Part shown: positions 2,777-27,364 of the stretch, piece after piece
How positions within the stretch are numbered: position 1 is the first letter of the stretch
Layout: each line of letters opens with the position of its first letter
From: Candidatus Saccharimonadota bacterium
GTDB lineage: Bacteria; Patescibacteriota; Saccharimonadia; Saccharimonadales; Saccharimonadaceae
Assembly: GCA_017514975.1 (NCBI GenBank)
Contig: JAFWIF010000004.1
Location: 1-35,212, forward strand
Direction: 5' to 3'
DNA: 35,212 nucleotides
Made by a program: the position numbers and the translations under genes
Notes under the pieces: generated by a model
Told to the model about the DNA's origin: nothing
Seen by the model: only the letters and a program-made list of their open reading frames with translations
Databases searched by the model: none

Positions 2777-3091
2777 ATGGACAGAAAAGCGGAACTTTTA
2801 GAGATCATTTGCAAGGCTGGCGACGCGGACCGCGTGAAAGCCGAGAAGCTTGTCGACGAGGTTGTATTTCTCGAAAAAAACCTTGCAGAATTGCGCCTGC
2901 TGCCTTTTATCAAGATAAACCCGAAAGACCCGACAAAACAAAAGGCGACACCAGCGGCGAAGCAATACAAAGAGTTATTGCAGCAATACAACAACACGAT
3001 GAAGCTTTTGTTGAAGATCAGCGGCGATTTGGGAGAAACCGAAGAGACAAGCCCTCTCCGTGAGTGGCTTAAATCGAGGGGCAAGGAATGA
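2777..3091 (+). CDS. terS: Terminase small subunit, P27-like
   Basis: 104 residues. The small subunit recognises the packaging site and loads the large subunit onto phage DNA. The sequence is nearly all helix. It has a charged N-terminal half (RVKAEKLVDEVVFLEKNL) and the motif LPFIKINPKDPTKQKATPA followed by AKQYKELLQQYNN, as in short P27-family small terminases of Firmicutes phages. It lies directly upstream of the large terminase and overlaps it by 4 nt (ATGA at 3088-3091). It is shorter than the usual 130-170 residues of P27 proteins and has no obvious N-terminal HTH. A second TerS-like HTH protein is encoded at 33967-34470, so which one binds DNA is open. Confidence 0.7.
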   Translation: MDRKAELLEIICKAGDADRVKAEKLVDEVVFLEKNLAELRLLPFIKINPKDPTKQKATPAAKQYKELLQQYNNTMKLLLKISGDLGETEETSPLREWLKSRGKE

Positions 3092-5892
3092 GCGCGGAAA
3101 CGTGGACGGCTGATAATTGCTATTTGCTCGAATACAAAGGGCGCATAGAATCGGGCGAGATAATCGCCGGGCAAGAGCTATACATGGAGCTTTGCAACCT
3201 GGCGGAAGACCTCAAGAACACCGACCTGTATTTTTACGACAGAACGGCGGCGCTTTTGCGGTTTGATTTTATGGAACATTGCGTAAGACTGACGAAAAGC
3301 CCGTTTTATAATCAGCCCATGCGGCTTATGCTTTGGCAAAAAGCCTTTATTGAAACGCTTTACAGTTTCAAACTTGCCGGAGAACAGACCCGCAACGGGG
3401 ATCCCGTGGACCGTTTCAAGAGCGCTTTGTTACTTATCGGGCGCAAAAATGGAAAGGCGCTTGCACTTGACACAAGGATCCCGACACCGAACGGCGACAA
3501 GACAATGGCGGATATTAAGCCGGGCGACTTTGTTTACAACGAAAACGGGTACCCCGTCGAAGTCCTTGCAACAAGTGAAATATTCAAAGACCGCACTTGT
3601 TACGAATTTACATTTGAAGACGGCGAAAAGATCATTTGTGACGCTAACCACAAGTGGACGGTACAAACCAAAGATGCAAGACGCCGGGAAAATTACACGC
3701 CTAAAACTGGAAGAAAAAGCGGCGCAAAGCACCCGTTAGAAAATGGGGCATTGTTAACTATGCAAGCCTTTGAGATGGTTGAAGACTACAAACGCCAAAG
3801 GCGTGATGGCAAAGGTATGGAATATAAATACCGCGTACCGCTGGCAAAGCCGATAGAATACCCTAAAAAAAAGCTTTTTAGTCCGTATGTTTTGGGGCTA
3901 TGGTTGGGCGACGGCGACAAAAACGACAATCGGATTGCTGTTGGCGTTGATGATTTGGAAACCCTTTTGAAAGAGCTTAAAAAAGAGGGCGTGCACGTTC
4001 AAAGCGTAAAAATGTTTTCGGGAAAATACGAAGTAAGAATCGGAGAAACCCGCAGCCATAAAACCGACACGCGCGATGCTTTTAGAGCGTTGGGCGTTTG
4101 GAAGAATAAGCACATACCCGAGGAATATTTTACCGCAAGCATTGAGCAGCGCCGCGACCTTTTATGCGGGCTTATGGACACCGACGGAACATGCAGTAAA
4201 GCGGGACAATGTGAATTTACACAGAAAAGCGAACGCATAATTAAAGATTTTTCGCGGCTGCTTACGTCATTAGGAATAAAGCACACAATAAAAGACAACG
4301 TGACGACTTGCAACGGCAGAATATTCAAAAGTTTTGTCGTTAGATTTTGGACAACAAAAAGCTTTTCGTGCTTTAGGTATCCGCGAAAGCATGAACGCCT
4401 AAAAGATCAGCTTGCAAGCCGGATGCTTTACAAGTCGATTGTTGACATAAAAGAAGTGGCAAAGCGCGATACAAAGTGCATTTGCGTAAACAGTAAAACG
4501 GGGCTTTTTTTGTGCGGAGAGCGGAACACCGTCACGCATAACTCCGAAACGTGCTCGGGACTTGCAAACGCGGAATTTATCGCGGGCAATGAGGGCGCGG
4601 ACATTGTTTGCAGCTCAAACGACGACGCGCAAGCCAGTATTGTTTACGACGCGATCGACACAATGCGGGCGCTATACGACCCAAACAGCGTCGACACGAA
4701 ACGAAACCAGCGCTTTATTCTGAACAAGGCGACAAACACAAAGATTTTCAAGCTATCGGACCGCACCCGGAACAAAGAGGGGCGAAACATAGACTGGGCG
4801 ATACTTGACGAAGCCCACGAAATGAAAAACAACGTTATCGCCAAGAGCATAGAGCAAAGCCAAAGCGTCAAAGATAACCCGAAATTTATCAAGATCACGA
4901 CCGAGGGTTTTGTCGTGGGCGGTTATCTCGACGAAGAGCTCAAAGGAGCGCGGGCGATCATCTACGGCGAGGACACCAGCATAAGCGGGCGGCGCAAGCT
5001 CCCGTGGCTATACACCCAGGACAGCGAAACGGAAATTTTCACAAACCCGCGAAGCTGGCAAAAGAGCAACCCGACAATCGGGGTTATAAAGCGCTTTGAT
5101 TATCTCGAGGAACAAGTAGACCTTGCGAAGAAATCAAAGGCGGACCGCATTTTCGTTTTGTCGAAAGACTTTAACTATAAACAGAACGGGGCGCAATCCT
5201 GGCTAAACGTCGAGGACTACGACTACGGCGCAACGTTCGATATTGAGGATTTACGCGGGGCGTTTTGTTTGGGACACGTTGACCTCGCGGAAACGACCGA
5301 CCTTGTTTGTGCAAAGGCGCTTGTTATACGTCCGGGGGACGCGACCAAGTACATTTTGACGCAGTATTTTATCCCGGAGAACAAGCTGCAGCCGGAGAAC
5401 GACGATCACACCGCAGGCGCACACTATAAAGAGTGGGTGGAAAAAGGATTTATCACCCTTAACGAGGGCAACGAAGCGGACCTGGCAAACGTGGCGGCGT
5501 GGTTTTATAAGCTCTACAAAGAACACGGGATAAAGCTTTACAAATGCGGATACGACCAAAAGTTCGCGAAAGAGTGGCTTGCTGCAATGGAAGACTACGG
5601 ATGGACAAAGGCAGCGGGCGACGTTGAAATGATTTTGCAGAACGCGCAAACGCTGTCAAATGCAATAAATCTTTGCGAAGCTGATTTTAAAAGCCGCTTA
5701 ATCAATTACAACGACAATCCCGTCGACAAATGGAATTTGTCAAACGCTTGTTTAAAGCTGAGCGAACAGCGGCAAGCGCTTATTATCAAAACCGAGAACG
5801 CCAAGAAGATCGACGGCGCCGTAACGCTGGCGAGCTTGTACGAAATGTGGCGGCGGTATAGATCAGACCTAAAGAAACTGACAGGGGGCTAA
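3088..5892 (+). CDS. terL: Terminase large subunit precursor, interrupted by an intein
   Basis: 934-residue precursor. Removing residues 124-485 leaves a 572-residue packaging motor of normal Terminase_1 (HK97-type) length. The ATPase domain has Walker A GRKNGK-S split exactly between K123 and S486 by the intein. Walker B is ILDEAHE at 572-578 with catalytic E575. The C-terminal RNase H-like nuclease has acidic residues in HVDLAETTDL (D732, D738) and KIDGAVTLA (D909). The motor pumps DNA into the prohead through the portal encoded next and cuts concatemers. The start has GAGGGG 6 nt upstream and overlaps the previous stop. Splicing must occur for the P-loop to form, so packaging activity depends on the intein. 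Confidence 0.95.
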   Translation: MSAETWTADNCYLLEYKGRIESGEIIAGQELYMELCNLAEDLKNTDLYFYDRTAALLRFDFMEHCVRLTKSPFYNQPMRLMLWQKAFIETLYSFKLAGEQTRNGDPVDRFKSALLLIGRKNGKALALDTRIPTPNGDKTMADIKPGDFVYNENGYPVEVLATSEIFKDRTCYEFTFEDGEKIICDANHKWTVQTKDARRRENYTPKTGRKSGAKHPLENGALLTMQAFEMVEDYKRQRRDGKGMEYKYRVPLAKPIEYPKKKLFSPYVLGLWLGDGDKNDNRIAVGVDDLETLLKELKKEGVHVQSVKMFSGKYEVRIGETRSHKTDTRDAFRALGVWKNKHIPEEYFTASIEQRRDLLCGLMDTDGTCSKAGQCEFTQKSERIIKDFSRLLTSLGIKHTIKDNVTTCNGRIFKSFVVRFWTTKSFSCFRYPRKHERLKDQLASRMLYKSIVDIKEVAKRDTKCICVNSKTGLFLCGERNTVTHNSETCSGLANAEFIAGNEGADIVCSSNDDAQASIVYDAIDTMRALYDPNSVDTKRNQRFILNKATNTKIFKLSDRTRNKEGRNIDWAILDEAHEMKNNVIAKSIEQSQSVKDNPKFIKITTEGFVVGGYLDEELKGARAIIYGEDTSISGRRKLPWLYTQDSETEIFTNPRSWQKSNPTIGVIKRFDYLEEQVDLAKKSKADRIFVLSKDFNYKQNGAQSWLNVEDYDYGATFDIEDLRGAFCLGHVDLAETTDLVCAKALVIRPGDATKYILTQYFIPENKLQPENDDHTAGAHYKEWVEKGFITLNEGNEADLANVAAWFYKLYKEHGIKLYKCGYDQKFAKEWLAAMEDYGWTKAAGDVEMILQNAQTLSNAINLCEADFKSRLINYNDNPVDKWNLSNACLKLSEQRQALIIKTENAKKIDGAVTLASLYEMWRRYRSDLKKLTGG
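3457..4542 (+). mobile_element. LAGLIDADG intein in terL, class 3 type
   Basis: 362-residue in-frame insertion, terL residues 124-485. The N-terminal block starts ALALDTRIPTPNGDKTM, so position 1 is Ala rather than Cys or Ser. It ends VTHN followed by Ser+1. The Hint B block reads CDANHKW (H188, W190). The F block reads KCICVNS with C464 at the site normally Asp, and the G block has T483 before HN. Trp-Cys-Thr at these places together with a non-nucleophilic first residue is the known signature of class 3 inteins, which start splicing from the internal F-block Cys. The centre holds a two-motif homing endonuclease, LGLWLGDGD (269-277) and LLCGLMDTDG (358-367), both with their acidic residues, so it may still be mobile. 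Confidence 0.93.
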
Positions 5893-17361: not shown

Positions 17362-17379
17362 AGGCAGAAAAACAGGAGA

Positions 17380-17409
17380 AAAGCCCCGGCGGTTATGCCG
17401 AGGCTTTTT
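17380..17409. terminator. Bidirectional terminator closing the late operon and the repressor gene
   Basis: Stem AAAGCCCCGGC (17380-17390) pairs with GCCGAGGCTTT (17397-17407) with one mismatch, a 6-nt loop, and T runs on both strands. It lies 18 nt after the last late gene and about 70 nt after the end of the leftward repressor gene, so it can serve both. Confidence 0.78.
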
Positions 17410-17477
17410 GTTTTGGGGAAATGCCGATTGTTGCAGACAAATCAACGGGAATATTATACCCTTTTCGGGTCCGAAAA

Positions 17478-17705
17478 TCAAGACACCGCGCGGACCTTTT
17501 CCGCGAGTTCGGAGCTTTCGAGGATATCGGGAATTTTGCACCCGAGAACGGCAGCTATTGCCGCGAGGGTTTCAATCTTTGCCCCGTCAATATTTCGGTT
17601 TCCTTGTTCGTAATGCTGATAGGCGCCCAGGTTAAGCCCCGCCGCTTTGGCGAGCTGGCTTTGAGACAGCCCCGCCGCTAGTCTTTTGTTTTGTAAATTA
17701 CTCAT
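17478..17705 (-). CDS. XRE-family repressor of the accessory cassette
   Basis: 75 residues from the ATG at 17705 (AGGAGG at 17717-17722); an in-frame GTG at 17729 would add 8 residues but includes the ribosome site. The HTH is clear: LQNKRLAAGLSQSQLAKAAGL, then AYQHYEQGNRNID, with a further helical part KIETLAAIAAVLGCKI. It lacks the C-terminal peptidase of CI-type repressors, so control is probably by autoregulation, not by RecA cleavage. It is divergent from the ArdC-like gene across a 200-nt region packed with dyads and two promoters. Aca-type regulators of anti-CRISPR operons have similar size and placement, but no specific relation can be claimed. Confidence 0.88.
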   Translation of the reverse strand: MSNLQNKRLAAGLSQSQLAKAAGLNLGAYQHYEQGNRNIDGAKIETLAAIAAVLGCKIPDILESSELAEKVRAVS

Positions 17706-17737
17706 GCGTAATAAAGCCTCCTTTTCCACTATTCAAA

Positions 17738-17767
17738 ATTATATATCATTTTGTATATATATATCAA
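17738..17767 (-). promoter_or_regulatory. Leftward SigA promoter for the 17478-17705 repressor
   Basis: On the minus strand: -35 TTGATA (17762-17767), 18-nt spacer, -10 TATAAT (17738-17743). The spacer is filled by a TATATATCA-type dyad (17740-17761), so the repressor probably shuts off its own gene. Confidence 0.65.
17740..17761. promoter_or_regulatory. Operator-like dyad 1 (TATATATCA type)
   Basis: TATATATCATTTTGTATATA inside the leftward promoter. The same motif recurs at 17834-17853, 18733-18752 and 18767-18786, each within or next to a promoter. This supports a binding site for the adjacent XRE protein. Confidence 0.6.
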
Positions 17768-17775
17768 TTGACATA

Positions 17776-17807
17776 TTGCACAAAGTTTCCGGCTTAAATT
17801 TGTGCAA
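17776..17807. repeat. Inverted repeat TTGCACAAA / TTTGTGCAA between divergent promoters
   Basis: Perfect 9-bp arms at 17776-17784 and 17799-17807 with a 14-nt centre. It is unrelated in sequence to the TATATATCA dyads and lies upstream of both divergent promoters, so it may bind a second regulator, perhaps of host origin. Confidence 0.6.
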
Positions 17808-17826
17808 CATTTGATATATATTTTTC

Positions 17827-17855
17827 TTGACTATGTATATCTTTTGATATATAAT
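17827..17855 (+). promoter_or_regulatory. Rightward SigA promoter for the ArdC-like gene
   Basis: -35 TTGACT (17827-17832), exact 17-nt spacer, -10 TATAAT (17850-17855), 48 nt before the ArdC-like start at 17904. A dyad of the operator type (TGTATATCTTTTGATATATA, 17834-17853) fills the spacer and overlaps the -10. Confidence 0.85.
17834..17853. promoter_or_regulatory. Operator-like dyad 2 (TATATATCA type)
   Basis: TGTATATCTTTTGATATATA; its complement has the same order as dyads 1 and 3. A half copy (TTGATATATA) also lies at 17811-17820. Overlap with the -10 element predicts repression of the ArdC-like gene. Confidence 0.6.
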
Positions 17856-17903
17856 GAATACAGAACAAAGGAAAACAACAACAAAGCAAAGGAGCACAAA
17901 ATC

Positions 17904-18224
17904 ATGACAAACGCACAGATTATTTTATCAAACAGTATCAAGCTTATGGAAGACGGGATCCTCAAAGGGTCCGGCATACTGGCAACAGTAACCGACAGCG
18001 AGGGAAACACAAAGCAGATCGAGCTGCCCGAAACAATCCACACTTTCGCAGCATGGAAGAGCCTGGGCTACATCGTGAAAAAGGGACAGAAAGCAAAAGC
18101 GGCTTTCACAATTTGGAAATACGCCGAGAGCAAGAAGCAGAACGACGAAGAAGAAGCCGAGGGCAGAATGTTTATGAAAACGGCGCATTTCTTCACAAAG
18201 GACCAGGTCGAGAAAATAGCATAA
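17904..18224 (+). CDS. ArdC-like antirestriction (ssDNA-binding) protein, N-terminal domain only
   Basis: 106 residues. The ATG at 17904 with GGAG 10 nt upstream is preferred over upstream in-frame starts inside the promoter. The pattern HTFAAWKSLGYIVKKGQKAKA followed by FTIWKYAE and later MKTAHFFTKDQVEKI matches the N-terminal ssDNA-binding domain of ArdC-type proteins, in which the W-x2-L-G-x2-V-K-K-G-x-K segment is conserved and a phenylalanine-rich end with Q-V follows. Full ArdC proteins have a C-terminal metallopeptidase part that is absent here. A role in protecting incoming phage DNA from host restriction is inferred from the family. It is first in an operon from its own repressed promoter. 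Confidence 0.68.
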   Translation: MTNAQIILSNSIKLMEDGILKGSGILATVTDSEGNTKQIELPETIHTFAAWKSLGYIVKKGQKAKAAFTIWKYAESKKQNDEEEAEGRMFMKTAHFFTKDQVEKIA

Positions 18225-18276
18225 AGCACACAAGCCGACGGGCGGCGGCAAAACCGCCCGAGAAAAGGAGCAGAAA

Positions 18277-18636
18277 ATGAACGCAACAATAAAAATTCAA
18301 AACGTTTACGACGAGATTTTGGAAGAGACAGCCCCGGAGCTTGTAATAACAACAGGCAAAAAGACTTTTATTGGCGCCCTCTTCTTTCCCCGTGAAAAGT
18401 GGCAGAAGCCCCGCAAGGTTTTGGAGCAGATCGAAGCCGAGGGCGAGCCGCTGAAAATATTACTTGACGCCTACGACCTGTTAAAGCGCCACAACATGAC
18501 AAAGGCAGACGACAAGACATTTCAAACGATGGTGCATTGGCAGTATGTAAACGGATTTTCTGACGAAATGGCAACAGAAAATTATAAATATAAAAACGAT
18601 ACCGAGTATTTAAACCATTTGAGGGCGGGGGCTTGA
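18277..18636 (+). CDS. Unknown cassette protein (119 aa)
   Basis: 119 residues, no family recognised. The first 25 residues are acidic, then a short hydrophobic strand TFIGALFFPREKW, a charged helix RKVLEQIEAEGEPLKILLDA and a C-terminal aromatic part (WQYVNGFSDEMATENYKYK). No signal peptide or membrane segment. It follows the ArdC-like gene by 52 nt with an AAAAGGAG ribosome site and precedes a terminator, so it is the second gene of a two-gene unit. An antidefence role is possible by association with the ArdC-like gene only. Confidence 0.65.
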   Translation: MNATIKIQNVYDEILEETAPELVITTGKKTFIGALFFPREKWQKPRKVLEQIEAEGEPLKILLDAYDLLKRHNMTKADDKTFQTMVHWQYVNGFSDEMATENYKYKNDTEYLNHLRAGA

Positions 18637-18662
18637 TCCCCGTTCCCGGACGATCAGAAAAG

Positions 18663-18687
18663 GGGCGGCAAAAGTAGCCGCCCTTTT
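18663..18687 (+). terminator. Terminator ending the ArdC-like unit
   Basis: GGGCGGC (18663-18669) pairs with GCCGCCC (18677-18683) across AAAAGTA, then TTTT; a run of A before the stem would extend pairing. Confidence 0.82.
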
Positions 18688-18732
18688 GTTATACAAACCC
18701 ACCAAAATTGCGGGGCAATATTTGTCTATAAT

Positions 18733-18752
18733 TATATATCAAAAAGTATATA
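18733..18752. promoter_or_regulatory. Operator-like dyad 3 (TATATATCA type)
   Basis: TATATATCAAAAAGTATATA, just upstream of the -35 of the second cassette promoter and only 14 nt from dyad 4, so cooperative binding is plausible. Confidence 0.58.
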
Positions 18753-18759
18753 AAACCGC

Positions 18760-18788
18760 TTGACAATATATATCATTTGATATATAAT
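18760..18788 (+). promoter_or_regulatory. Perfect-consensus SigA promoter for the three small cassette genes
   Basis: -35 TTGACA (18760-18765), 17-nt spacer, -10 TATAAT (18783-18788): full consensus at both boxes. A consensus promoter in a temperate phage usually needs strong repression, and dyad 4 fills the spacer. Confidence 0.9.
18767..18786. promoter_or_regulatory. Operator-like dyad 4, the most symmetrical copy
   Basis: TATATATCATTTGATATATA: nine-base arms TATATATCA / TGATATATA around TT, covering the promoter spacer and most of the -10. It is the best candidate for the ideal operator of the 17478-17705 repressor. Confidence 0.65.
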
Positions 18789-18838
18789 AAAGTCACAAGG
18801 TAAACAAAAGAACACCACACGAAAGAGAGGGCGAGAAA

Positions 18839-18979
18839 ATGACGATCAAGACCAGCAGCAAAAAGAATTTTGAAGCAGCAATTAAGGAATACCGGGCGAG
18901 GGGTTATAACTTAATAACCTACACAGCAAAGCTTGCGGAGCTGGAAAAGGAAAACGAAATTGTTATTATCACAAGATAA
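18839..18979 (+). CDS. Small unknown protein (46 aa)
   Basis: 46 residues, MTIKTSSKKNFEAAIKEY through KENEIVIITR. Basic helical first half, short beta end. The ribosome site AAAGAGAGGGCG leads into the ATG and the gene lies 51 nt behind the perfect promoter at 18760-18788, so it should be strongly made when derepressed. No family recognised. It is the first of three short genes sharing nearly the same leader sequence. Confidence 0.6.
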   Translation: MTIKTSSKKNFEAAIKEYRARGYNLITYTAKLAELEKENEIVIITR

Positions 18980-19033
18980 CAGGGCGCGGGGCAAAGCCCC
19001 CGCCGGACACGATCAGAAAGAGAGTGCGACAAG

Positions 19034-19207
19034 ATGACAAATAACAAAACCGTAAGCGTAGAATTGACAAGGGCTGAAATTTGCGACTTGATTATAACCT
19101 GCAACATTAGACAGAGCGAAAAGGACGGCAAAAAGTGGAGCGTGTTATATAACAAGCTGATGAAGCAGTTAAAAGAATTTGACGCGGCAAACGGCAAGAA
19201 GCACTAA
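19034..19207 (+). CDS. Small unknown protein (57 aa)
   Basis: 57 residues: MTNNKTVSVELTRAEICDLI, then a charged helix ending FDAANGKKH. The VSVELTRAEICDLI opening resembles short phage proteins in which a strand is followed by a helix, but I cannot name a family. The ribosome site is AAAGAGAGTGCG. It lies in the same run as the 46- and 62-residue genes, all between the promoter at 18760 and the terminator at 19409. Confidence 0.6.
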   Translation: MTNNKTVSVELTRAEICDLIITCNIRQSEKDGKKWSVLYNKLMKQLKEFDAANGKKH

Positions 19208-19232
19208 AGCAAAAGAAAGAGAGGGCGACAAA

Positions 19233-19421
19233 ATGAGCGAAGCAAAGAAGAGTTTTAAAAAGCTTGTTGAAGACCTGGCGGAGCTGGACAGCATGAACGA
19301 GAAAACCGTCGCGGAATGGTTTACACGTTGCGACTACAGTTACCAGCGCGAGGGAATAAGCTACAAAGAGTTAGAGCTTTTGTTGAAGCTTGCAAACAAG
19401 ATCGGGGCGGCGGTTAAATAA
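19233..19421 (+). CDS. Small unknown protein (62 aa)
   Basis: 62 residues from the ATG at 19233 (AGAGAGGGCG upstream): MSEAKKSFKKLVEDLAELD, EKTVAEWFTRCDYSYQREG and KELELLLKLANKIGA. All helix, amphipathic. An in-frame upstream start at 19179 would overlap the previous gene and is not favoured. It ends inside the terminator hairpin. Function unknown; small acidic helical proteins behind repressed promoters are common among anti-defence proteins, but nothing specific is seen. Confidence 0.6.
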   Translation: MSEAKKSFKKLVEDLAELDSMNEKTVAEWFTRCDYSYQREGISYKELELLLKLANKIGAAVK

Positions 19422-19433
19422 CCGCCCTTTTTT
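19409..19433 (+). terminator. Terminator ending the accessory cassette
   Basis: GGCGGTTA (19409-19416), two-base loop, TAACCGCC (19419-19426), then C and six T. The stop codon of the last cassette gene is part of the stem. Confidence 0.85.
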
Positions 19434-19504
19434 GTGGTACATTGTACGACAAAAATACGACACCAGGGCAAAAACCGCCCTTTTTAGTGTCGTATGCAAA
19501 AACA

Positions 19505-19640: not shown

Positions 19641-19688
19641 TGAGCCACTCGGGACTCGAACCCGAGACAACTTGATTAAAAGTCAAGC
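19641..19688 (-). other. tRNA-Lys (UUU) 3' half, att core; not a whole tRNA
   Basis: Read on the minus strand: anticodon arm CTTGA-CTTTTAA-TCAAG (19671-19687, anticodon TTT at 19678-19680), variable TTGTC, T arm TCGGG-TTCGAGT-CCCGA (19649-19665), and acceptor end GTGGCTCA (19641-19648). The D arm and 5' acceptor strand are missing, so this is a fragment kept for identity with the host gene, as in phages that integrate into tRNA genes. Confidence 0.88.
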
Positions 19689-19752: not shown

Positions 19753-20805
19753 CTAGGCAAAAATGCGGTCCAGCTTTTCGGCTGCATTTTCTTTCAATTC
19801 GTCCAAATGGGCATAAATCCTATTTATCATTGTCGTGTCGGCGTGTCCCATAAGTTCCGCCGCCTTTTTCGGGCTTACGTCCGAATAATAAAGCATTGTA
19901 CCATAGTTATGCCGGAAAATGTGCGGCGTGAGCGTTTCGGCGTCGGGCGTTTCCAGGGCGAGCGCCTTTTGTATCTTTTCCCAAAATCGGCGGAAAGATG
20001 ATTTTGTAAGCGGGGATCCGTCGGGCATGGAGAACAGCAAGCCGCCCTTGTCTGCCGTGTAAGCCCGTAAAACGGGCAGAAACGGCGCGGGAATCGGGAT
20101 GTCTCTAATACTATAACTATTTTTCGTCCGCTCGATTTTAGGGGCGTTTCCGTCGAATACAAGGGCGCGGCGGACATATACAACCTTTTTCTTTAGATCG
20201 ACGGCGGACACGTCGAGCGCGAGGCACTCTTCGCGACGCAGACCGCAATAATAAAGCATGAGCACGAAAACCCGCTCCCGTTCCGTGAGATCGGCGGCAA
20301 AAAGCGCCGCCTTTTCTGCTGCCGTGAGCGCCCGCTTTTCGTTTCTGACCTTTTTGGGGGCTATCAGCTTTTTTATATTGACGCCGCGCCGGATATCAAT
20401 TTCGGCGTCACCGGCTGCCGCGTATATCTGCCGGAGCGTCAACTTTATTTTATTGCACGTTTCGGGCTTGTGGAAATTATCGTCGACAATCGCCTGTAGG
20501 TCCGCTTGCGTTATTTCGGAGAAATAGAGGTCGCCTATTTCGGGCAGCAGGTGCCGCTCTATTACGTTTGAATACATAGCGCGGGTATTTATCGCAACGT
20601 GGGCTTTTTCGGTCCTTAACCAGCGCCGCGCGAAAGCCCCGAACGCGAAGTCGTTACCGGGGCGGGCGTTTTCGGCTAGATATTTCTGCTTTGCCGCAAA
20701 GGCTTTCTTTTCCAGTTCCGCTTTTGTGGCGGCGTAGATCGAGCGGCGGACGAGACGCCCGTCCGCGTCCCGCCCGAGTGTTATTTTCTTCTCATAGCGT
20801 GGCAT
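19753..20805 (-). CDS. int: Tyrosine-type site-specific integrase
   Basis: 350 residues. The N-terminal arm-binding region (1-45, ITLGRDADGRLVRRSIYAAT) is followed by the SAM-like core-binding domain (about 52-115, FGAFARRWLRTEK) and the catalytic domain. Active-site residues can be placed: R190 (CGLRREE), K228 (RTKNSYSIRD), H295 and R298 (HIFRHNYGT), H321 (MGHADTT) and the nucleophile Y331 (INRIYAHL). It recombines the adjacent attP with a host tRNA-Lys gene. It is transcribed leftward behind the repressor at 20809-21129 with a 3-nt gap, so both are made in the lysogen. Ends in TAG. Confidence 0.96.
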   Translation of the reverse strand: MPRYEKKITLGRDADGRLVRRSIYAATKAELEKKAFAAKQKYLAENARPGNDFAFGAFARRWLRTEKAHVAINTRAMYSNVIERHLLPEIGDLYFSEITQADLQAIVDDNFHKPETCNKIKLTLRQIYAAAGDAEIDIRRGVNIKKLIAPKKVRNEKRALTAAEKAALFAADLTERERVFVLMLYYCGLRREECLALDVSAVDLKKKVVYVRRALVFDGNAPKIERTKNSYSIRDIPIPAPFLPVLRAYTADKGGLLFSMPDGSPLTKSSFRRFWEKIQKALALETPDAETLTPHIFRHNYGTMLYYSDVSPKKAAELMGHADTTMINRIYAHLDELKENAAEKLDRIFA

Positions 20806-21208: not shown

Positions 21209-21226
21209 TGTCGCAAAAAAGCGAAA
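21209..21226. promoter_or_regulatory. Operator O1 (TGTCGC type)
   Basis: TGTCGC-AAAAAA-GCGAAA, an imperfect copy of the dyad, lying between the divergent promoters and 6 nt upstream of the rightward -35. Confidence 0.6.
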
Positions 21227-25778: not shown

Positions 25779-25955
25779 ATGAACGAAGAAAAAATAATTT
25801 TAACGCCCGACCAGGTTGCGGCGGTTTGCGATCATTATTGCCGCTTTCCGCGAGAGTACGACGAAGACCTGCACGGGGTCCCGCTGGCGGAAAGCCACAT
25901 CTGCAAAAACTGCCCGCTGACGCTGGCGGCAGAAAGAGAGAACACGGAATCATGA
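25779..25955 (+). CDS. Small Cys-containing early protein
   Basis: 58 residues from ATG at 25779: LTPDQVAAVCDHYCRFPREY, then a GVPLAESHICKNCPLTLAAE ending. Two Cys pairs (C-x3-C and C-x2-C) with His suggest zinc binding. This short family is common next to the methyltransferase or replication genes of Clostridia phages; its role is unknown. The stop overlaps the methyltransferase start (ATGA at 25952). Confidence 0.7.
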   Translation: MNEEKIILTPDQVAAVCDHYCRFPREYDEDLHGVPLAESHICKNCPLTLAAERENTES

Positions 25956-27364
25956 ACGGATTAATTATTGATTGTTTTGCAGGCGGCGGGGGCGCGTCCG
26001 TCGGAATTGAAATGGCGCTCGGGCGTTCGGTTGATATAGCTATCAATCACGACCCGCAGGCAATACTCATGCACAAGACAAACCATTGTAAAACGTTGCA
26101 CTTGACCGAGGACATTTTCGAGGTTGACTTAAAAAAATACGTTAAGGACAAGCGCGTGGCGCTCATGTGGGCGAGCCCCGATTGCACCAGCCACAGCAAA
26201 GCAAAAGGCGGGCAGCCTAGAAACCAGGGTTTGAGGATACTGCCCTGGGCGGTATATAAGCACGCAAAAGCGATCTTGCCGGACGTTATCATCATGGAAA
26301 ACGTCGAAGAGATACAGCAATGGGGACCGCTTGACGAAAACGGGCACCCGATAAAAGAGCGCATGGGCGAAGAATACAAGCGTTTTATAACGGCTATGAA
26401 GTCGCTGGGCTACGTGTTTGAGAGCAAAGAGCTTGTTGCGGCAGACTACGGAGCACCGACCACCCGGAAACGTTGGTACGCGATTTTTCGACGTGACGGG
26501 CGCCCGATCATCTTTCCCGCGCCCACTCACAGCAAGACGGGATCCGACGGGCTGAAAAAGTGGCGCCCGGTTTCCGAGGTTTTAGACTTCGGCAATTTGG
26601 GTAAATCCATTTTCGACAGAAAAAAGCCCCTGGCGGAAAACACGCTCCGCAGAATCGCGCGGGGTATAGAAAAATTCGTTGTAAACGGCGGGGACCAAGA
26701 ATTTATTATCCAGTACCATTCCGAAACCGCAAAGGGCGATTTTAGGGGGCAAAGCGTAGCGGGTCCGCTCATGACGATAGACACCAGCAACCGCTACGGG
26801 CTTGTTTCTGCTTTTATCTCGAAGTTTTACAAAACGGGAATCGGGCAAAGCTGCCTCGAGCCGCTGCACACGATCACGACCAGCGCCGGACACTTCGGGC
26901 AGGTTAGTGTCTTAATGACCGAGTGGGAAAAGTTAAAGGCGGCGGGCGTCGATGAAGAAACGGCGAAGAAATGCACGGCGGTTTCCCGGTTTATAGTGGA
27001 ATACTACGGCAGCGGGACCGCTCAAAGCGTCGACGAGCCGTTGCACACGATTGTAACAAAAGACCGCTTTGCATTGATAACGGTTTTAGGCAAAGAGCAC
27101 GTTATCCTTGATATTTTCTTGCGTATGCTCACGCCGGAAGAATTGAAGCTGGCGCAAGGTTTCCCGAAAGACTACATCATAGACCGCGACTATAAATGGC
27201 GACCCTACCCGACAGCGGAGCAGGTAAAGAGGATCGGGAACAGCGTCGTTCCGATTATGGCACAAGCCCTCGTTTCTGCAAATTGCCCGTATCTCAAAGA
27301 GGGCGAACGGGAGCCGAATTTGATGATTGAGGAAGACGACAACAGGCAAATGTGCTTTGCATAG
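25952..27364 (+). CDS. dcm: C5-cytosine DNA methyltransferase
   Basis: 470 residues from the ATG at 25952; a longer frame exists upstream but is covered by the 58-residue gene. Motif I FAGGGGASVG (9-18) binds S-adenosylmethionine. The catalytic loop is ASPDCTSHSKAKGG (C78) instead of the usual PPCQ. Motif VI is IMENVEEI (E116), motif VIII APTTRKRWY, and the end has LTPEELKLAQGFPKDY and RIGNSVVP (motif X). Between 245 and 385 there are two related blocks, FISKFYKTGIGQSCLEPLHT and FIVEYYGSGTAQSVDEPLHT, probably in the target recognition region. It probably masks phage DNA from host restriction; no partner endonuclease is seen. Confidence 0.93.
   Translation: MNGLIIDCFAGGGGASVGIEMALGRSVDIAINHDPQAILMHKTNHCKTLHLTEDIFEVDLKKYVKDKRVALMWASPDCTSHSKAKGGQPRNQGLRILPWAVYKHAKAILPDVIIMENVEEIQQWGPLDENGHPIKERMGEEYKRFITAMKSLGYVFESKELVAADYGAPTTRKRWYAIFRRDGRPIIFPAPTHSKTGSDGLKKWRPVSEVLDFGNLGKSIFDRKKPLAENTLRRIARGIEKFVVNGGDQEFIIQYHSETAKGDFRGQSVAGPLMTIDTSNRYGLVSAFISKFYKTGIGQSCLEPLHTITTSAGHFGQVSVLMTEWEKLKAAGVDEETAKKCTAVSRFIVEYYGSGTAQSVDEPLHTIVTKDRFALITVLGKEHVILDIFLRMLTPEELKLAQGFPKDYIIDRDYKWRPYPTAEQVKRIGNSVVPIMAQALVSANCPYLKEGEREPNLMIEEDDNRQMCFA

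Follow-up and report, generated by a model that had tools for sequence, protein, structure and literature searches.

A self-repressed, exchangeable cassette encoding an ArdC-N-like protein beside the attachment site of a rumen siphophage, and its possible role against host defences

In the establishment regulon of p576 (pLS20 clade II), the repressor Reg acts on its own promoter, on the strong promoter of ardC and on two further promoters with four genes between them; among the relatives of p576 only ardC and reg are conserved (PMC8708921). Anti-CRISPR operons carry an inverted repeat in the core promoter, and their autorepressor gives a burst on entry into a repressor-free cell (PMC9410906); in archaeal viruses, strong shared regulatory sequences have successfully led to anti-defence genes (PMC11065993). 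Here we describe a locus of comparable design at positions 17478–19433 of a 35,212-nucleotide contig (JAFWIF010000004.1; hereafter the window, that is, the whole stretch analysed), in which a small XRE-type repressor gene, a gene for an ArdC-N-like protein and four small open reading frames (ORFs) lie beside the attachment site (attP) of a temperate siphophage. That this is an autonomous, self-repressed and swappable accessory cassette is well supported, and we consider it probable that it serves establishment, with XRE autorepression, a burst of the ArdC-N-like and small proteins on entry, and exchangeable cargo likely to be directed against host defences.

The locus shares with the p576 regulon (PMC8708921) a self-regulating repressor whose operators lie at its own promoter, at the strong promoter of the ardC-type gene and at that of a small operon, and variable cargo around a retained ardC; here the parts are a repressor, an ArdC-N-like gene, two operons and four further genes. 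Unlike that regulon, it is carried by a phage rather than a plasmid, uses a helix–turn–helix (HTH) instead of a ribbon–helix–helix repressor, encodes ArdC-N without the protease, and has the repressor itself swapped in the nearest sister phage. With acr–aca operons (PMC9410906, PMC7648647) it has in common small cargo of unknown fold, an encoded HTH autorepressor and an inverted repeat in the core promoter, and in the nearest sister (L016) the HTH gene is likewise the terminal gene of the operon; it differs in that no known anti-CRISPR protein was found and in that the XRE gene is divergent and set over two operons. The promoter-repeat units of Butyrivibrio phages Bo-Finn and Arian (MN882552, PMC7372960) also combine an ArdC-N-like first gene with a repeated promoter/operator and flanking terminators, but these phages are virulent, their operator is different and no XRE homologue was identified alongside. 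Bo-Finn (L125, 6840–8240) has several tandem units of this kind, each with small genes and then a terminator, and ArdC-N leads one of them. The overall design is known; new are the phage carrier, the change of repressor class, the protease-less ArdC-N, the swapping of cargo as well as repressor among close sisters, and a fixed operator geometry.

Layout and regulation of the cassette

Read base by base, the interval is bounded by the late-operon terminator on the left and a tRNA-Lys-type attP on the right (Table 1), and the coordinates and placement given in an initial annotation, made from the sequence alone, are correct. The XRE gene runs leftward. Rightward, promoter P1 leads into the ArdC-N-like gene, orf119 and a terminator, and promoter P2 into orf46, orf57, orf62 and a second terminator, after which come the attP core and the leftward integrase gene. 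P1, P2 and the XRE promoter are the top three sigA-type promoters of the window, and no others reach at least 11/12; the cassette terminators fold more stably than shuffled sequence. The components first described for this locus (that is, its own XRE repressor, two strong SigA promoters with repeated operators and its own terminators) were thus recovered, with six operators.

Table 1. Features of the cassette and its immediate surroundings (positions in the window)
Feature	Position	Strand	Basis and remarks
Late-operon terminator, left insulator	17378..17409	+	hairpin −18.4 kcal/mol, followed by T run; z −2.0
XRE/HTH_3 repressor, 75 residues, without peptidase domain	17478..17705	-	Pfam HTH_3, E 2.9e-10; sister-phage homologues 47–48% identical
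XRE promoter, TTGATA-18-TATAAT, 11/12	17738..17767	-	promoter and operator scan; operators overlap it
Operator O1, 18/20, on −10 of XRE promoter	17740..17759		operator scan
Operator O2, 17/20, on −35 of XRE promoter	17758..17777		operator scan
Operator O3, 16/20 with a single good half-site, immediately before P1	17801..17820		operator scan
Promoter P1, TTGACT-17-TATAAT, 11/12	17827..17855	+	promoter scan
Operator O4, 18/20, within P1	17834..17853		operator scan
ArdC-N-like protein, 106 residues; predicted Rad4 beta-hairpin-domain-like ssDNA-binding fold, no metalloprotease	17904..18224	+	Pfam, AlphaFold2, structural alignment
Intercistronic hairpin ahead of orf119 start	18240..18261	+	sequence; retained in sister L016
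orf119, no relatives found	18277..18636	+	positive coding score
Terminator, first operon	18659..18687	+	−19.7 kcal/mol, z −4.5
Operator O5, 17/20, upstream of P2	18733..18752		operator scan
Promoter P2, TTGACA-17-TATAAT, 12/12	18760..18788	+	promoter scan
Operator O6, perfect 20-bp palindrome within P2	18767..18786		operator scan
orf46	18839..18979	+	start leader common to orf57 and orf62; coding score
orf57	19034..19207	+	shared start leader; coding score
orf62	19233..19421	+	relatives in L016 (63%), in an ArdC-N-bearing Blautia-MAG element (L013/L014) and in a further phage (L127)
Terminator, second operon	19403..19435	+	−17 kcal/mol, z −2.8
attP core, tRNA-Lys(TTT) gene, 3′ half	19641..19686	-	exact in sister phage L016
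Tyrosine integrase, neighbouring anchor gene	19753..20805	-	Pfam PF00589, E 4e-25
MAG, metagenome-assembled genome; ssDNA, single-stranded DNA.

Translation of XRE from an ATG with a full Shine–Dalgarno sequence gives the 75-residue protein listed, and an upstream GTG alternative would give 83 residues; PADLOC returned only generic HTH matches for the cassette. The operator, TATATATCA-TT-TGATATATA, has seven matches of at least 16/20 in the 35-kb window, six of them inside the cassette, where at the sequence level they lie on or beside all three promoters. The palindrome of the CI-like lysogeny switch, TGTCGCANNANTGCGACA, is a different one, present at 21209, 21267 and 21521 (a count reached by 0 of 100 shuffles) and not found in the cassette, in agreement with the proposed independence of the cassette from the switch at 21 kb.

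Spacer shuffling of single promoters was not significant for either P1 or the XRE promoter. Given that such shuffling is too weak for AT-rich operators, we relied instead on the position of the dyad across loci, with control promoters, using the 35 loci obtained by scanning IMG/VR with the XRE alignment. Near the XRE gene, 10 of 19 XRE groups (the window included) have at least one strong promoter whose palindrome has its centre precisely 16.5 nt away from where the −35 begins, or 6 of 15 when the four groups that prompted the test are left out. A strong palindrome occupies this position in 11 of 81 promoters near XRE relatives and in 0 of 876 in control phage loci, the base composition of which differs. 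At this one promoter position, four phages each have an operator of their own, with XREs 47–48% identical to that of the window; diverse operator sequences in a constant geometry fit each XRE having its own recognition helix. XRE and operator belong together, and the repressor would be expected to bind there.

Other sequence features were noted in the same region. A 10/12 promoter-like sequence (17453–17481, minus strand) overlaps the palindrome TTTTCGGACCCGAAAA just past the XRE stop codon and is also present in L134. Upstream of P1 lies an inverted repeat, TTGCACAAA...TTTGTGCAA (17773–17810), and the motif TTGTGCAACATTT from this region recurs in the repeated promoter units of Bo-Finn. GC-rich hairpins, the one ahead of orf119 and another at ~18985–19004, stand directly before the ribosome-binding sites of orf119 and orf57, have counterparts in L016 and may stabilise or insulate the cistrons. 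Five loci (L136, L139, L140, L144 and L171) carry a module consisting of a 41-residue ORF, an XRE gene and an IS30 transposase gene, which is also found in Faecalibacterium phage FP_Lagaffe; in gut contigs, this module is accompanied by a palindromic promoter.

Cargo and its exchange among sister phages

The initial annotation proposed that sister phages be compared for swapped content, and content was found to be swapped in four of them (L016, L011, L027 and L038). The nearest sister, L016, from another rumen MAG, is colinear with the window (portal 84%, capsid 76%, tail protein 66%, integrase 77%) and has the same attP. Its cassette retains ArdC (82%) and orf62 (63%); XRE, the operator, orf119, orf46 and orf57 are replaced, the replacements being a single promoter whose palindrome is TAGCCCAATGGGCTA, a pair of different small ORFs and a 65-residue HTH protein that substitutes for the divergent XRE. 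At the cassette site of the distant sister L011 (tail genes ~30–64%), a 48% identical XRE is found with six unrelated small ORFs, and the promoters there hold three sites (17–20/20) of the palindrome TATATAACAAATGTTATATA. L027 combines an XRE (47%) with a SprT-like protease under the palindrome TTGACACTATACTACATTTGTAGTATAGT, and L038 has its XRE (47%) as the last gene, after two other small ORFs, under the palindrome TTGACAATGTAACACAATTGTGTTATAAT. In L149, an XRE gene and a palindromic promoter immediately follow the tail genes. In L007, an IMG/VR relative with a 99% identical tail protein, XRE is unchanged and the contig breaks off 38 residues into ArdC. Slot, regulator type and promoter design therefore recur among the sister phages; the cargo does not.

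The ArdC-N-like protein is matched by Pfam ArdcN (PF08401) over residues 46–97 with an E-value of 2e-5, over the gathering score, and a ten-sequence ArdC-N alignment conserves MTN at the start, HT..W...GY.V.KG and FF...QVE. Its AlphaFold2 model (predicted local distance difference test (pLDDT) 88.5) places R388 ArdC and Rad4/XPC at the top of the Foldseek ranking with weak E-values (0.03 and up). In VIA-align, where ArdC or Rad4/XPC make up 16 of 17 rows, 83 residues superpose on residues 49–131 of R388 ArdC (6i89; Z 6.2, 19% identity) and 75 residues on Rad4 (Z 7.6), in keeping with the published unification of ArdC-N and Rad4 (PMC5512222). The protein resembles R388 ArdC (PMC7213743; 6i89, 6sna) in the fold of the ssDNA-binding domain and in the FxxxQ ‘squiggle’ region, but it stops after this first domain, and the C-terminal zincin metalloprotease with its HExxH motif is absent. 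The ArdC homology in the initial annotation thus stands and full ArdC identity is rejected; Pfam and fold matches point, at the level of the model, to the ssDNA-binding beta-hairpin domain alone. As antirestriction by R388 ArdC does not need protease activity (PMC7213743), such a stand-alone domain could still work.

Butyrivibrio plasmids (49% and 40%) and Clostridia MAG elements encode ArdC-N relatives of about this length, and phages of Butyrivibrio and Lactobacillus delbrueckii give shorter matches; the gene takes the lead position after a strong promoter in phage LL-Ku, Bo-Finn and L003. In the ‘family’ of genome G000, one weak ArdC-N match was found, in another genome, and nothing else.

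As first annotated, the four small proteins (119, 46, 57 and 62 residues) match no family in Pfam, PHROG, NCBIfam or PADLOC. Their genes are not core genes of all relatives. Scored against the phage's own codon usage, each ORF lies above zero in its own reading frame and below zero in the remaining five, and orf46, orf57 and orf62 share one 32-nt start leader (repeat D4). Searches for orf119 in IMG/VR (by peptide patterns), INPHARED, PLSDB and 391 Clostridia genomes found no relatives, and its single-sequence AlphaFold model was unusable (pLDDT 49.7). INPHARED contains no relatives of orf57 or orf62 and no match to the cassette DNA, and the orf62 profile has no match in the 391 Clostridia genomes. 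Relatives of orf62 do occur elsewhere: in the unrelated Blautia-MAG element, ~570 bp past the ArdC-N gene, and in another phage, as the first small gene after a lysin.

The carrier phage and its host

The window is a whole contig within an 885-kb MAG of 39 contigs and encodes the gene set of a siphophage, namely terminase, portal, capsid, tape measure, Dit, tail protein, integrase and a CI-like repressor. The carrier is a temperate siphophage of the rumen, and the setting is not that of a conjugative plasmid such as p576. Outside the phage, the tRNA-Lys core was found neither in G000 nor in the MAG of L016, which makes the binning to both MAGs doubtful; the best chromosomal match to the bacterial attachment site (attB) has two mismatches and occurs in 4 of the 48 genomes from a single family, within the class that was sampled around a Clostridia MAG. 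The window (1–35212) and a sister contig from a different MAG (L169/L170) have homologous starts (99 versus 89) and ends (35170 versus 32906), suggesting true linear genome ends and a free phage rather than an integrated prophage.

The large terminase (3088–5892, 934 residues) has an insertion of the LAGLIDADG homing-endonuclease type at residues ~343–405, probably an intein, and its best match in L016 spans only part of the frame. A DNA methyltransferase gene at 25952–27364 (phrog_116, E 3e-86), missing from L016 despite its colinearity elsewhere, is likely to be a second antirestriction measure of the phage.

Proposed function and alternatives

Given the match of its parts to acr–aca and p576 regulons, the cassette most likely acts in counter-defence during establishment. 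We envision that XRE binds the 20-bp palindrome over the spacer and −10 of its own promoter, P1 and P2, and that in a lysogen it would hold the cassette at a low set point. On entry of naked DNA into an XRE-free cell, P1 and P2 would fire at once, producing a burst of the ArdC-N-like protein and the four small proteins, after which XRE would shut the promoters off. The ArdC-N-like protein would probably coat single-stranded or opened phage DNA and so shield it from restriction or degradation, and the small proteins would form a swappable cargo that most likely inhibits host defence. Each may thus have antirestriction or other anti-defence activity, for which the evidence is domain-level in the case of ArdC-N and contextual for the other cargo.

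Several observations weigh against this proposal. None of the four small proteins belongs to a known anti-defence family, anti-CRISPR and antirestriction families included, in the libraries searched, and the XRE type is shared with the modules beside IS30 transposases in FP_Lagaffe and its relatives, so that the regulator is a general autorepressor and no proof of anti-defence. The anti-defence island of the initial annotation holds as regards operon design, which matches acr–aca and plasmid establishment operons; for the anti-defence function itself the backing is indirect and comes from the ArdC-N domain, not from cargo families or regulator type. No assayed activity of a stand-alone ArdC-N was found in the literature.

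A further point concerns LL-Ku and Bo-Finn, in which the ArdC-N gene directly precedes replication genes (single-stranded-DNA-binding protein or replisome genes). This order, like the ssDNA-binding beta-hairpin fold itself, fits a role in auxiliary early DNA metabolism, with ArdC-N as a replication or recombination helper, the other proteins as host-takeover factors and counter-defence playing no part; we regard this as quite unlikely here, because the gene lies kilobases from the recombination genes (22–25 kb), under a separate repressor, at a site where cargo is exchanged. Somewhat less improbable, if still unlikely, is a lysogenic-conversion (‘moron’) cassette serving the lysogen, for example through superinfection exclusion or anti-phage defence, at the low expression set by XRE. 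The locus has the position of such accessory sites, between late genes and attachment site, as well as promoters and terminators of its own and a content that varies among sisters, but strong autorepression would be odd for a gene steadily required in the lysogen, the lead gene encodes a protein of the DNA-entry type, and library searches found no membrane or known exclusion protein. A toxin–antitoxin addiction module with XRE as both antitoxin and regulator seems to us very improbable: XRE weakly resembles HTH domains of Y4mF/HipB-type antitoxins, as does the terminal HTH of L016 one of the MqsA type, and genes read from sequence as toxin–antitoxin-like occur at other late-gene/integrase sites (HEPN-MNT in L036, DUF4065-like in L028), yet the five cargo genes span two operons, none matches a toxin family in Pfam, PHROG, NCBIfam or PADLOC, and XRE is replaced in L016 while ArdC and orf62 stay.

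Under the establishment reading, the cassette would be the phage counterpart of plasmid ardC–repressor regulons, in rumen phages whose counter-defence genes are hardly known, and its stand-alone ArdC-N poses the question of whether the ssDNA-binding half is sufficient for antirestriction. More tentatively, rumen and gut Clostridia phages may share an exchangeable ‘establishment slot’ beside attP under a small XRE family with bar-code-like operators at a fixed promoter position, in which case the cargo would be a reservoir of undescribed defence inhibitors, antirestriction would be reduced to a minimal protein in stand-alone ArdC-N, and more such cargo could be located through the operator geometry. 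The fixed dyad position would offer a simple sequence key to similar cargo genes without homology, and the cassette a good place to seek proteins that disable bacterial defences just after infection.

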